Below, in pieces: positions 3,403-9,063 of a stretch of DNA of 10,075 nucleotides (position 1 is its first letter; every line of letters begins with the position of its first letter). Origin of the DNA: Opitutales bacterium (lineage in GTDB: Bacteria > Verrucomicrobiota > Verrucomicrobiae > Opitutales > CAG-312); assembly GCA_017623955.1 (NCBI GenBank), contig JAGAOA010000193.1, positions 1 through 10,075 of the forward strand, in the 5' to 3' direction. The position numbers were made by a program, and so were the translations under genes. The notes beneath the pieces are model-generated. The model saw nothing but the letters and a program-made list of their open reading frames with translations. It was not told the origin of the DNA and made no database searches.

Positions 3403-3708
3403 TTATTGTTTAAGACGGTCGGCTGTTTCATATTCAGAGTAAACTGTATCGACTTGATATTCTATCCATTTTGCCATCGTTGCGTTATCTATGGTAATCC
3501 CATCTGCATTTAGAATAGCTCCAAGAAATTCTACAGTTTCTTCAGGCAACGACAATGTTATATCAGTTGTATTGTTTTTGCGGTTTTCATATTGTTCGAC
3601 CATTTTAACAAACGCATCTTTTGAAATTCCCCATTGCTCCGCCAATACTGCAACAATATTTGGTAGTTGATTATTTTCTAATTTTTCTGCTTCAGTCATT
3701 TCACTCAT
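3403..3708 (-). CDS. small acidic phage-module protein, unknown function
   Basis: This is a 101-aa protein when read from the ATG at 3708-3706 (MSEMTEAEK). That ATG overlaps the upstream stop as ATGA (3708-3705), a usual sign of translational coupling. AAGGAG lies 11 bases before it, inside the last codons of the upstream gene. A GTG at 3714 would add two residues and sits 5 bases after the same AAGGAG, so it remains possible. The protein is acidic and probably helical, with a polar middle (NRKNNTTDITLSLPEETVEF) and no membrane segment or known motif. As the last gene of the tail module it may be a small tail, baseplate or chaperone protein, but its family is not recognised. Its stop lies just before the hairpin at 3367-3398. 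Confidence 0.65.
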   Translation of the reverse strand: MSEMTEAEKLENNQLPNIVAVLAEQWGISKDAFVKMVEQYENRKNNTTDITLSLPEETVEFLGAILNADGITIDNATMAKWIEYQVDTVYSEYETADRLKQ

Positions 3709-4817
3709 ATACACTTAGTCTCCTTTACTATCATTTTATATAATTTATTTATTTCGTCATATTCGATTGTTGGTTCTGTATAAACAAATAGCTTTTCTGC
3801 TTTTATATATTCCTTCCACTGGCGTATTGATGGTGTTGTCGACTTTGATATAACATCTAATTCAGATCCGTCACCTAATTGTGGAACTACAATTTTAGGG
3901 ACATCATTAGGATATTCTGAATGGAACGATGTTGTTGTTTTTGTTTGGCGGTCTCGTCGTTTAAATGGTCTTGAACTGTCGACTTTCTTTACCGACATCG
4001 AGTGTATTCGATAGTTTAGATTTGTATTTCCAACATTCCACTTTGAATCGATAGATATTGTTCCCCATAAACACTCGTAACAGTGATCTGGAATTTCCTT
4101 ATATGAGTGCGACGTGTGAAGTGTATTTCCTATTGACCACGACATATCTGCGAGAGGACGATCTAATTCGATTATTCTATTGGGGGTATCAATACTCACG
4201 ATTGTTACGGCATTAGGCGTTAGAAGCTCGTATGTTTCGTAAACGATCCCAGTTAGAACATTATTTATTCCACGCTTTGCAAACGAAGCTTTTGCCAACA
4301 CTGAAACTTTATCGCCTGTTGAAAACTTAGTGACATCTGCAACTTTTAACAAAGTATGCCATTCAATAGTTGTTCTACAGTTATTACCACGTCCCAAAAT
4401 AACAGTAGATAAACCCAACGCTCCTACATCTTTTAAGCCCCAGATTGGGACAATGTCGTTTTCGTAGCTGATGTATTCTTTGTTCGGGGCGTATGAATAC
4501 GTCTCGGATACGATAAGCAAATCGCCATCGTCGTTATACTCGATTCCGTCGCTTACAAACGCGAGCTTGTAATTTCGATTCTTCAACATCTCAAGCGTTG
4601 TTTCTGGAATACCTGCGAACACTCCGATACCGTCGTAGTCGAGCATATCGAAGTCAAGTGCTGTTCCGACGTCTGACTTTGTTTTCAAATAGTGTGTTTT
4701 GTTGATAAAATACTTGAGCTCGATAAAGAAATTATCGGTATCGCCTAATTCGGCAAAATAGTAAACAGGTGTCCATTTACCTACATATTTCTTGTTGTCA
4801 AAAAAATCATCATTCAT
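3705..4817 (-). CDS. putative phage tail-associated protein, unknown function
   Basis: The protein is about 370 aa from the ATG at 4817 (MNDDFFDNKKYVGKW). A GTG at 4844 would add nine residues (MACPHNFEN). The frame stays open without a start codon to about 4904, but that extension runs into the neighbouring repeat cluster and has no Shine-Dalgarno sequence, so I prefer the ATG. The ATG has only a weak GAG close upstream. The sequence looks beta-rich, with many alternating hydrophobic and polar stretches (GDKVSVLAKASFAKRG, VTIVSIDTPNRIIELDRPL) and no signal peptide or membrane segment. Its place directly after the tape measure gene is where many phages carry distal tail or baseplate-hub proteins. 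I do not recognise a named family. It overlaps the next gene by the 4 bases ATGA. Confidence 0.7.
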   Translation of the reverse strand: MNDDFFDNKKYVGKWTPVYYFAELGDTDNFFIELKYFINKTHYLKTKSDVGTALDFDMLDYDGIGVFAGIPETTLEMLKNRNYKLAFVSDGIEYNDDGDLLIVSETYSYAPNKEYISYENDIVPIWGLKDVGALGLSTVILGRGNNCRTTIEWHTLLKVADVTKFSTGDKVSVLAKASFAKRGINNVLTGIVYETYELLTPNAVTIVSIDTPNRIIELDRPLADMSWSIGNTLHTSHSYKEIPDHCYECLWGTISIDSKWNVGNTNLNYRIHSMSVKKVDSSRPFKRRDRQTKTTTSFHSEYPNDVPKIVVPQLGDGSELDVISKSTTPSIRQWKEYIKAEKLFVYTEPTIEYDEINKLYKMIVKETKCI

Positions 4818-4855
4818 ATTCTCAAAGTTGTGTGGACACGCCACTGTTGCGGTTT

Positions 4856-4943
4856 CAAAAGCGTGAGGGCTTTGCCCTTTGGATTTGGATTTTTTGTTTA
4901 AAAGTTAGCGTAAAAGCTTCGCAATTTAGAAAAAATCCAAATG
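4856..4943 (-). repeat. stem-loop repeat, copy 1
   Basis: Read on the - strand it starts with CATTTGG (4943-4937) and ends with CTCACGCTTTTG. ATTTGGATTTTTT (13 bases, 4942-4930 on the - strand) pairs with a perfect partner at 4883-4895. GGCAAAGC (4943-4950) also pairs with GCTTTGCC (4869-4876), with 6 unpaired bases between the two helices. GGGC-TTT-GCCC (4867-4877) is a competing small hairpin. The inner loop holds a short GCG/CGC stem. Confidence 0.65.
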
Positions 4944-4961
4944 GCAAAGCGGTTTGATTAT

Positions 4962-5045
4962 CATTTGGTTTTATTTCGGACTCACGTGCATTTAGCACGC
5001 TACGCCTCATAAAACGCAAATCCTAATGCAAACCTCACGCTTTTG
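4962..5045 (+). repeat. stem-loop repeat, copy 2
   Basis: The outer stem pairs ATTTGGTTTT (4963-4972) with AAAACGCAAAT (5011-5021), with one bulged G. The inner hairpin is CGTGC-ATTTA-GCACG (4985-4999). The unit ends CCTCACGCTTTTG, identical in reverse complement to the end of copy 1. It aligns without gaps to copy 3 over 84 bases, with 56 identities counted by hand. Confidence 0.7.
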
Positions 5046-5046
5046 T

Positions 5047-5073
5047 TGTTCCAACATAGAGCTTGTTGGAACA
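5047..5073. repeat. central 10-bp hairpin in the spacer between copies 2 and 3
   Basis: TGTTCCAACA (5047-5056) pairs perfectly with TGTTGGAACA (5064-5073) around a 7-base loop. A second TGTTGGAA at 5138-5145 could compete for the left arm. The hairpin lies in the 105-base spacer that would form the head of the large fold made when copies 2 and 3 pair. Confidence 0.6.
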
Positions 5074-5150
5074 TCTCAAGCAATGAAGTCATATCGTTTT
5101 CTGTTTTCATCTGGGTTAAATTTTAGATTGTCTTCGTGTTGGAAGCAGTG

Positions 5151-5234
5151 CAAAACCGCAGGGCTCGAGGCAGGATTTGCGTTTTGCAAGGCGTAGCTGG
5201 GCTGTAGCCCTGCAGTCCGCAGCAAAACCAAATG
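5151..5234 (-). repeat. stem-loop repeat, copy 3 (GC-rich)
   Basis: On the - strand it runs from CATTTGG (5234-5228) to GCGGTTTTG (ending 5151). It has the same outer stem as copy 2, ATTTGGTTTT with AAAACGCAAAT, and the same CTACGCCT block (5196-5189). The inner hairpin is GGGCT-AC-AGCCC (5210-5199), at the same place as in copy 2 but with different bases. An alternative pairing joins GCAGGGCT (5158-5165) with AGCCCTGC (5206-5213). Confidence 0.7.
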
Positions 5235-5245
5235 ATGCCCGAGAG

Positions 5246-5335
5246 CATTTGCTTATGAAATTTTTTCTAAAATTCATCTTTCACTTTTCCTTTCAAAAAT
5301 TTCATTTCATAAGCAAATGCGGCGATGCGGTTTTG
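5246..5335 (+). repeat. stem-loop repeat, copy 4 (17-bp perfect stem)
   Basis: GCATTTGCTTATGAAAT (5245-5261) pairs perfectly over 17 bases with ATTTCATAAGCAAATGC (5304-5320), around a loop of about 42 bases rich in T and C. The unit ends GATGCGGTTTTG at 5335. GCGGTTTTGC (5327-5336) is also a perfect 10-base partner of GCAAAACCGC (5150-5159) in copy 3. On the tail transcript this stem begins 16 bases after the tape measure stop codon. The copy is more diverged than the others, so its membership rests on the landmarks, the length and the orientation. Confidence 0.55.
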
Positions 5336-5336
5336 C

Positions 5337-8348: not shown

Positions 8349-8492
8349 ATGGAAAACATATCTGACATCCTTATAAAAACACTTATACTACTTGGATTAC
8401 CTTTCGTAGTCTATGTAATGGCTTATGTTTTTGATAAGATTTTTGATTACAAACTAACATCTACCTTTCTTGACGATTTAAATAATCGTTAA
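8349..8492 (+). CDS. possible small single-span membrane protein, antisense to the tail operon
   Basis: This 47-aa frame (ATG at 8349, TAA at 8490) lies in the 200-base gap between the chaperone and tape measure genes, on the opposite strand. It begins MENISDILIKTL, has a hydrophobic segment at about residues 8-27 (IKTLILLGLPFVVYVMAYVF), then a charged tail ending DDLNNR. Its composition looks like a real small membrane protein, such as a phage-encoded morphon or lysis/immunity-type product, but no family is recognised. It overlaps the 3' end of the - strand chaperone frame by 4 bases. A hairpin that could end its transcript follows at 8505-8536. The palindrome CTTACGTAAG (8332-8341) lies just upstream. 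There is no strong Shine-Dalgarno sequence, and chance cannot be excluded. Confidence 0.45.
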   Translation: MENISDILIKTLILLGLPFVVYVMAYVFDKIFDYKLTSTFLDDLNNR

Positions 8493-8797
8493 TCCCTTTC
8501 CAAATCCCTCAGTTCAGAATTTAATCCGCTGAGGGAATTTTCGTCTATGAGTGCGGCTTGAGCTTCAAATATTGCAAGTTTATCGTACATTCTTCGGCGT
8601 TGCACAGCACTTGCAACGTATTTTAAACGCACTGGTGAAAGGTCTAAAACGTCATCCCAAGTCATACCCGTGTTGGCGACAATCCACGCTACTGTTCTGC
8701 AGAAAGACTGCCATTGTTTTCGTTCTCGTTCTTCGGAAGGTCTATCCCAAAGGCTTGGGCTTTGAGTCTGTTGGCTGCCACCTTCCTCTTCAGCCAC
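8489..8797 (-). CDS. phage tail assembly chaperone, downstream (T-like) frame, probably made by -1 frameshift
   Basis: This 102-aa frame overlaps the 3' end of the 124-aa frame at 8689-9063 by 109 bases and is in the -1 frame relative to it. It holds WIVANTGMTWDDVLDLSP followed by a helical stretch (RLKYVASAVQRRRMYDKL), a pattern seen in C-terminal halves of tail assembly chaperones near tape measure genes. Its only start is a GTG at 8797 without any Shine-Dalgarno sequence, and an in-frame TGA lies 12 bases further upstream. It is thus more likely read as the extension of the upstream frame, like the T part of lambda G-T, which recruits tail tube subunits to the tape measure protein. A distinct, weakly started protein is the alternative. 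It ends about 200 bases before the tape measure gene. Confidence 0.72.
   Translation of the reverse strand: MAEEEGGSQQTQSPSLWDRPSEERERKQWQSFCRTVAWIVANTGMTWDDVLDLSPVRLKYVASAVQRRRMYDKLAIFEAQAALIDENSLSGLNSELRDLERD
8505..8536 (+). terminator. possible terminator for the small + strand gene
   Basis: TCCCTCAG (8505-8512) pairs perfectly with CTGAGGGA (8529-8536), with a 16-base loop, followed by ATTTTC. It begins 12 bases past the stop of the 47-aa frame. It also lies within the 3' coding part of the - strand chaperone frame, so the symmetry may be chance. The U-tract is short. Confidence 0.3.
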
Positions 8798-9063
8798 GCC
8801 GTAAAAGGCTCAAAATTCAACTCGTGAATCTTTTTGAAGATTTTACCGCTGTCATCTGGAGTGAGCGAGTCTATCTGATCAGCAGTGAGGTCTGTTGCTA
8901 ATGCAATGAGTTCAACTTCGATGTCGATTATCGATGCATATTCAGCAAAACAACGCACTGGTAAACATTTTACCAATACCGATTTTTTGCCATTGATTTC
9001 AGTTGAAATTTCGACATCCTCGCCACCTATAAAGTGTGACATATTTTGTTGTTCGTTATTCAT
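8689..9063 (-). CDS. phage tail assembly chaperone, upstream (G-like) frame
   Basis: This is a 124-aa protein with AAGGAA 8 bases before its ATG (9063). Residues from about 20 (STEINGKKSVLVKCLPVRCF) through ELNFEPFTAWLKRK match the size and layout of G-like tail chaperones: a short beta region, then helices with a ALATDLTADQIDSLTPDD segment. Such proteins bind the tape measure protein during tail building and are not in the final virion. The last 35 or so residues lie in the overlap with the -1 frame and become Asn/Glu-rich (PKNENENNG) before TAG, as expected for a frame that is often left by frameshift. The gene starts 16 bases after the 91-aa gene, so it is co-transcribed. Confidence 0.75.
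   Translation of the reverse strand: MNNEQQNMSHFIGGEDVEISTEINGKKSVLVKCLPVRCFAEYASIIDIEVELIALATDLTADQIDSLTPDDSGKIFKKIHELNFEPFTAWLKRKVAANRLKAQAFGIDLPKNENENNGSLSAEQ

Follow-up and report, generated by a model that had tools for sequence, protein, structure and literature searches.

A mosaic palindromic element of about 190 bp, dispersed at gene ends in an Opitutales bacterium and several relatives

The stretch of DNA analyzed here (termed the window) is a contig of 10,075 nucleotides from an Opitutales bacterium (JAGAOA010000193.1, assembly GCA_017623955.1), whose minus strand carries a prophage-like tail operon (Table 1). The tape-measure-like protein of this operon weakly matches a PHROG tape measure (E 8.9e-5). 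Just before its gene, two minus-strand ORFs (8689-9063 and 8489-8797, together window positions 8489-9063) overlap in different frames; such an overlap is the pattern of tail-assembly chaperone pairs made through a programmed frameshift. The window also encodes an FGGY kinase, which is 85% identical to its counterpart in the Verrucomicrobiota MAG SIG74 (titled Verrucomicrobiaceae and termed here G001); the window thus looks like chromosomal DNA of a Verrucomicrobiota bacterium. The subject of this analysis is the spacer between the tape-measure gene and the next gene, which is filled by two inverted copies, termed A and B, of one element of about 190 bp that folds as a three-way junction of helices P1, P2 and P3.

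Table 1. Positions of the genes, the two elements and their helical arms within the window
Feature	Coordinates	Strand	Basis
Upstream gene, tail tape-measure-like protein, 982 aa	5337..8285	-	ORF; element B abuts its stop codon
Next gene	3705..4844	-	start looks intact
Element A, 190 bp, P1-P2-P3-P1'	4856..5045	+	inverted repeats; folds; covariance model (CM)
A, P1 5' arm, CAAAAGCGTGAGG	4856..4868	+	inverted repeat; fold
A, P2 hairpin, variable arm (unit 1 of the initial annotation)	4869..4950	+	inverted repeat; fold
A, P3 hairpin, conserved arm (unit 2)	4951..5034	+	CM; fold; covariation
A, P1 3' arm, CCTCACGCTTTTG	5033..5045	+	inverted repeat; fold
Spacer, bounded by the 3' ends of A and B	5046..5149	.	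sequence
Element B, ~187 bp, inverted relative to A	5150..5336	-	folds; CM match
B, P1 5' arm, GCAAAACCGCA	5326..5336	-	fold; P1 script
B, P2 hairpin, 17-bp perfect arms (unit 4)	5245..5320	-	inverted repeat; fold
B, P3 hairpin (unit 3)	5161..5243	-	CM; fold
B, P1 3' arm, TGCGGTTTTGC	5150..5160	-	fold; P1 script

An initial annotation of this spacer had described four pooled repeat units, of 84-90 bases each, in strictly alternating orientation. The landmarks by which it defined them--a CATTTGG or CATTTGC start, an internal CAAATSC and a TTTTG end--do occur in all four units, at the places and on the strands that it gave. The units were compared by local alignment, pair by pair, with 500 dinucleotide shuffles as the reference. 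Only units 2 and 3 (i.e., the two P3 hairpins) proved to be alike along their length (score 52; 0 of 500 shuffles as good); units 1 and 2 also matched (score 39; 0 of 500), which is read here as the effect of a common tail, CCTCACGCTTTTG, an arm of the stem joining the two units. The similarity of units 3 and 4 is marginal (13 of 500 shuffles as good), and the pairs 1-3, 1-4 and 2-4 show no excess similarity (91, 51 and 358 of 500 shuffles as good, respectively). Hence the likeness of units 2 and 3 stands, but the choice of unit does not. The termini of A form a perfect 13-bp inverted repeat (4856-4868 with 5033-5045) and those of B likewise pair (5326-5336 with 5150-5160); because of these terminal inverted repeats, units 1 and 2, and units 3 and 4, each constitute a single three-helix element. 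The alternation of strands is real, but arises because the units are neighboring arms of one palindromic structure.

Folding agrees with this architecture: as RNA, A reaches -68.3 kcal/mol (z -7.0) and B -80.9 kcal/mol (z -7.9); as DNA, the corresponding z scores are -7.3 and -6.9; each element beats 200 of 200 shuffles in all four fold tests, and the RNA and DNA folds give the same three-way junction. The covariance model of P3 matches A at 4950-5034 (71.9 bits) and B at 5162-5245 (56.5 bits). B starts directly after the tape-measure stop codon (TAG GCAAAACCGCA), and the 5' end of A points toward the start of the next gene. A lies upstream of that gene and does not cut it, because the gene's start looks intact; a truncation by A was considered and dropped, inasmuch as the starts of its homologues (P0121-P0124) agree with it, falling at the same position or at most 11 residues from it. 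A and B are about 105 nt apart, and the 30-odd nt of spacer beside each of them resemble, by eye, the tail that follows the P1 3' arm (P1') in relatives. An 8-mer, TGCGGTTT, occurs both directly before A (4848-4855) and inside the first arm of B (5326-5333), thus flanking the A-plus-B composite on both sides; this could be a target duplication or chance.

The element is not confined to the window. Searched by blastn with the 491-bp spacer, G001 yielded nine hits (E <= 1e-5), all of them away from the contig bearing the kinase locus. A covariance model of P3 built from 9 rows (R1), for which 150 of 510 candidates in G001 were scored, gave 47 matches at E <= 1, spread over many contigs; 38 of these reach E <= 1e-10. 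In a set of 54 genomes made up of G001 and relatives, four are carriers at E <= 0.01: G001 with 43 matches, G016 and G018 with 7 each, and G004 with 1. A broader P3 model (R3) applied to 18 near relatives (G002-G019) at E <= 0.1 gave 11 in G016, 10 in G018, 1 in G004 and none in the other 15. A draw of 372 genomes of the order, including G001, yielded the same four carriers only, at a low sensitivity (12 candidates scored per genome) that may miss weak or diverged members. R3 had no match in 35 kinase loci (534,701 bases), of which L001 is from G001 and the others are from other bacteria, mostly Verrucomicrobia by title. Single copies are mostly 174-226 bp long (up to 252). They also occur in tandem arrays--such as one in G001 (C21:81386-82037) with four P3 hairpins in a row, the last one weak--and, in G016 (L132), as an inverted pair, tail to tail in the manner of A and B, where two genes converge. 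Ten G001 contigs (C4, C5, C6, C8, C10, C13, C16, C19, C23 and C28) have a terminus no more than about 130 bases away from a copy or P1 arm; the repeats therefore probably break the assembly.

These copies bear directly on another suggestion of the initial annotation, namely a phage RNA. A phage-specific structured RNA of the tail operon would suit the position between the tape measure and the next gene; copies elsewhere, however, follow genes that look cellular by eye, which largely refutes this reading, and the viral searches lend it no support. Phage records gave a single 28-nt match (E 0.1); viral contigs gave none to a strict repeat pattern, which is too strict for a family with variable stems (and which, for the same reason, returned nothing useful from genome contigs); and searches of viral contigs with the tape-measure protein and the product of the next gene gave no confirmed relative. 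This explanation is hardly credible.

Conservation of P3 was explored in a MAFFT alignment of 25 sequences from the window, G001, G004, G016 and G018. Paired changes occur on both sides in 8 of the 11 predicted P3 pairs. With four more pairs added, 92.2% of cells pair, as against 68.3% in shuffles, and the covariation score is 0.594, as against 0.167, with 0 of 500 shuffles as high in either case; these values somewhat favor structure, since rows beyond the blastn matches came from a structure model. Further pair types are no more numerous than in shuffles (257 of 500), and sliding the structure by 1-3 columns brings the covariation score to at most 0.145. The P3 helix is thus kept by paired changes. 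P1 and P2 differ in sequence between species, and their helices still form in the copies folded. Two different P3 modules are found within a single P1/P2 frame in G001; the element is therefore a mosaic. Eighteen G001 copies average 87% identity, and 12 of their 18 upstream flanks match no other, the remaining 6 copies standing behind similar PEP-CTERM-like genes. A second G001 family (L073, L127, L129, L208, L211 and L231) has the same P1 but differs in its P2 (CTCGATTGCGA, which contains a terminator) and in its P3 arms, and those G001 gene ends that were read are often packed with such mosaics.

The most striking property of the family is its placement. For 55 strong P3 copies, the interval 50-130 nt before P3 was examined for the stop codon of an open frame (80 codons or longer) on the same strand. 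One was found for 36, of which 35 were counted (L099, with a short frame ending inside P2, was left out); of the other copies, nine stand behind a further copy in an array, five are at contig edges, and five (L079, L126, L074, L109 and window element A) have no such upstream gene. Four strong G016/G018 copies (L162, L163, L165 and L167) have no upstream stop by nearly the same rule. When array members and copies at contig edges are set aside, 45 leading copies remain, and 35 of them begin at the upstream gene's stop codon, on the same strand; for G001 alone the figure is 22 of 26. For 32 of the 35, the stop coincides with the beginning of P1 (-6 to +3), as judged by eye for five where the script had chosen a wrong P1 or none; in L103, L106 and the minus-strand copy of L132, the frame runs 10-21 nt into P1. 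By chance, a stop would fall within -6 to +3 for 0.48% of intergenic positions and strands in the G001 loci examined. P1 arms were found by script in 47 of the 55 copies, with some assignments spurious (L073, L055, L094, L102 and some array members); for these, the stop was read directly from the sequence instead.

The P1 arm itself gives a second view of this placement. An exact arm, TAAAACGTGCGAG, occurs 56 times in G001 and 0 times in the control. Among the 30 occurrences whose loci were examined, 12 of 16 5' arms coincide with stop codons of frames of at least 230 codons, as against 0 of 14 3' arms (one-sided Fisher 2e-5; seven of the 3' arms were labeled by script and seven by eye). The TAA stop is often part of P1, and many copies in G001, G004 and G018 have TAAAA..TTTTA ends. 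Other mosaic families, whether they share this P1 or have a different one, keep to the stop-codon placement in the cases inspected, namely with GACGGTGTCTCGATTGCG following P1 (L208, L211 and L231) and with TAAAACGTGTGTGG (L120, with L121 similar). Window element B obeys the rule (TAG, then P1), but its 3' end is not TA; A does not obey it and has TA at neither end. One case runs against the preferred orientation: in G016, a tandem pair (L133) is reversed and holds the stop of a 1199-codon frame in its 3' arm. Many copies (L055, L073, L075, L077, L082, L088, L095 and L122 in G001; L137 and L138 in G016) follow genes ending in ..PEPAEWALIFGAIALGFIAYRRRK, a PEP-CTERM-like signal, and the reverse of the tail after P1' reads like the end of a PEP-CTERM-like gene (..KK stop).

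Folded sites lying directly after stop codons, mostly in one orientation and with 'empty' tandem units, are also what integron attC-like recombination sites behind cassette genes would look like. The attC boxes have the consensus GTTRRRY / RYYYAAC, however, and the element ends instead in GTTTTAC / GTAAAAC, so that the 3' end does not match. Moreover, several upstream genes look like housekeeping genes, which, judging by eye from their translations, are presumably those for GAPDH, ClpP, fumarase, triosephosphate isomerase and ribosomal protein L19. An attC origin is accordingly very improbable.

Two of these housekeeping genes allow orthologous ends to be compared. GAPDH ends were readable in 17 of 18 genomes and only that of G001 has the element; the other 16--including those of G005 (whose protein is 97% identical), G016 and G018--have, by eye, ordinary hairpin-plus-T terminators. 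For fumarase, 17 genomes had a match and 16 of them a readable end; here 2 of the 16, those of G001 and G018, have the element, with different P1 and P2, a sharing that may reflect either inheritance or a repeated hit. The stops of both genes are natural, in that the proteins end at the same residue in element-free relatives. Because most relatives lack the element at these two ends, gain there is the simplest reading of the comparison. Although element-free orthologous ends exist, their flanks are too diverged to align and show neither a target-site duplication nor a clean empty site. The native terminators of relatives lie about 20-65 nt beyond the stop codon (GAPDH ends, by eye); in G001 a native GAPDH terminator is not recognizable after the element, again by eye, and replacement is therefore as possible as insertion. 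At the fumarase end of G010 (L193), a palindrome of about 142 nt runs from the stop to the locus end, with the TAG inside its arm (TAGCGGG..CCCGCT) and an apex that resembles one P3 variant by eye, which suggests a wider class of stop-codon palindromes.

The same ends pose the question of whether the element serves the genes that it follows. It might be a functional 3'-UTR element, that is, a structured RNA or complex terminator under selection and copied by gene conversion. Its placement on the sense strand at stop codons, its presence after fumarase in both G001 and G018 and the covariation of its P3 helix all speak for this, as does the intrinsic terminator pattern (a GC stem, a short loop and a run of T) of the G001 copies, which occurs in the sense direction in 27 of 33 G001 elements and in the antisense direction in 2. 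Elsewhere the sense pattern occurs in 1 of 12 elements in G016, G018 and G004 and in neither of the 2 window elements; the totals are thus 28 of 47 in sense, with P1 rather than P2 as its site in two, and 2 of 47 in antisense. On the other hand, most orthologous ends lack the element, no simple P2 terminator is seen in 13 of 14 elements outside G001, A and B among them, tandem arrays and module swapping occur, and Rfam 15 gave 0 matches above the gathering score in the window. Selection for such a role as the primary explanation is thus unlikely, if the most serious competitor to mobility; a 3'-UTR function may, of course, have been added to a mobile element.

If the element is mobile, something must move it. 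Searches for a mobilizer covered three families: Y1_Tnp (PF01797) was over cut-off in none of the four carriers (G001, G004, G016 and G018), with one sub-cut-off match in G016 (E 0.12), and in 6 of 14 control genomes; DDE_3 (PF13358, the IS630-type transposase) was found in 0 of 8 genomes and RVT_1 (PF00078, reverse transcriptase) in 0 of 6. Thus, within these families, the known drivers of REPs and of TA-targeting MITEs are not seen in the carriers, which are draft genomes whose missing genes may be unassembled. Nor was an autonomous version, with a gene in place of P2, seen by eye in the loci examined.

These results weigh upon a specific form of mobility, in which the element is a REP/BIME moved by a RAYT (Y1) transposase, with a GTAG or CGTC tag hidden in P3. 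Tag-like words do occur, by eye, 5' of the apical hairpin on the reverse strand (GGCGTAGC in the first P3 type and GGCGTCAG in another); moreover, according to the available portion of PMC3733652, the verrucomicrobium Opitutus terrae commonly has GTAG repeats, and a REP end is often the source of a TAG stop codon. Against this reading, no carrier draft has Y1_Tnp over cut-off, the element (about 190-230 bp, with an 83-nt P3 hairpin) is far longer than a REP (20-40 bp, with the GTAG/CGTC tag at one end), the tag-like word lies within an internal loop rather than at an end, and one P3 variant (L111 and L116) has a run of G and C in its place. A RAYT-driven origin is therefore improbable. What remains of the likeness is that REPs and BIMEs, as described in that portion of PMC3733652, are likewise extragenic palindromes in mosaics and inverted pairs whose ends can supply stops.

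Other known repeats resemble the element in part. ERIC/RU-1, Correia/NEMIS, RUP and RPE are, in the excerpt of PMC2229807 consulted, short, non-coding and mostly intergenic, with terminal inverted repeats, stem-loop folding and, for most, TA at their ends; terminal inverted repeats on a short non-coding element are shared with MITEs generally. The element differs from these in forming a three-way junction with one sequence-conserved arm and interchangeable other arms, in having its start mostly fixed at stop codons in one orientation, and in that the three families searched yielded no related transposase. The Yersinia YPAL/RU-2 repeat, per the same excerpt, is a 168-bp palindrome whose targets span or adjoin dyad symmetries, whereas the present element begins right at the stop codon, ahead of where relatives have their native terminators. 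In Streptococcus pneumoniae, SPRITE resembles terminators and BOX is modular, and the part of PMC3049150 at hand describes neither exact stop-codon placement nor a three-way junction for them. In short, the family is MITE/BIME-like in kind and lies outside the testable definition of a REP. The PMC literature searched, some of it available in part, held no description of it, which is not proof of its absence from print.

Among the origins proposed in the initial annotation, a mobile palindromic, BIME-like repeat fits best: in the genome of a relative, many gene ends that are unrelated to one another carry copies, tandem arrays and inverted pairs also occur, and the paired changes in P3 are clear. 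The refuting outcome that the initial annotation had named, an absence of more copies and of covariation, was therefore not observed. Presence and absence at orthologous ends, dispersed similar copies, arrays and mosaics make mobility as DNA the best-supported reading, and on balance it is probable, though with moderate confidence, that this is a dispersed, non-coding, mosaic palindromic element that spreads as mobile DNA, in the manner of MITEs and BIMEs, at gene ends and without being phage-specific. Its movement would depend on a transposase or recombinase acting in trans, in much the way supposed for bacterial MITEs and BIMEs; a protein would recognize P3 and P1 as folded DNA and insert the element in or beside the TA of a stop codon, so that the P1 arm (TAAAA..) would keep the stop. 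Many copies would then act as the gene's 3' end and terminator, making insertion harmless. In the window, B would have colonized the end of a prophage-like gene, and a second copy, A, would have come to lie inverted beside it.

Against the mobile reading stand the negative results given above on target-site duplication, clean empty sites and a mobilizer, and the copies that depart from the stop-codon rule; moreover, random insertion explains neither the exact start at stop codons nor the preferred orientation. A bolder version, in which the element is aimed at stop codons--entering at TA in one orientation, with its arm rebuilding the stop and its second-arm terminator replacing the gene's own--is put forward only as a doubtful conjecture.

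Small palindromic repeats usually avoid genes, inasmuch as insertions inside genes are lost. Here the start of the element is mostly fixed to a stop codon and to the sense strand, at housekeeping-looking and prophage-like genes alike. Whether targeting or selection lies behind this, copies sit at contig ends of the draft G001 genome and are thus easily lost from annotation. If it is targeting, then mobile DNA would here have a hitherto unknown means of locating safe sites, one that makes insertion harmless at any gene; if it is selection, then selfish DNA would be taking over the 3' ends of genes.
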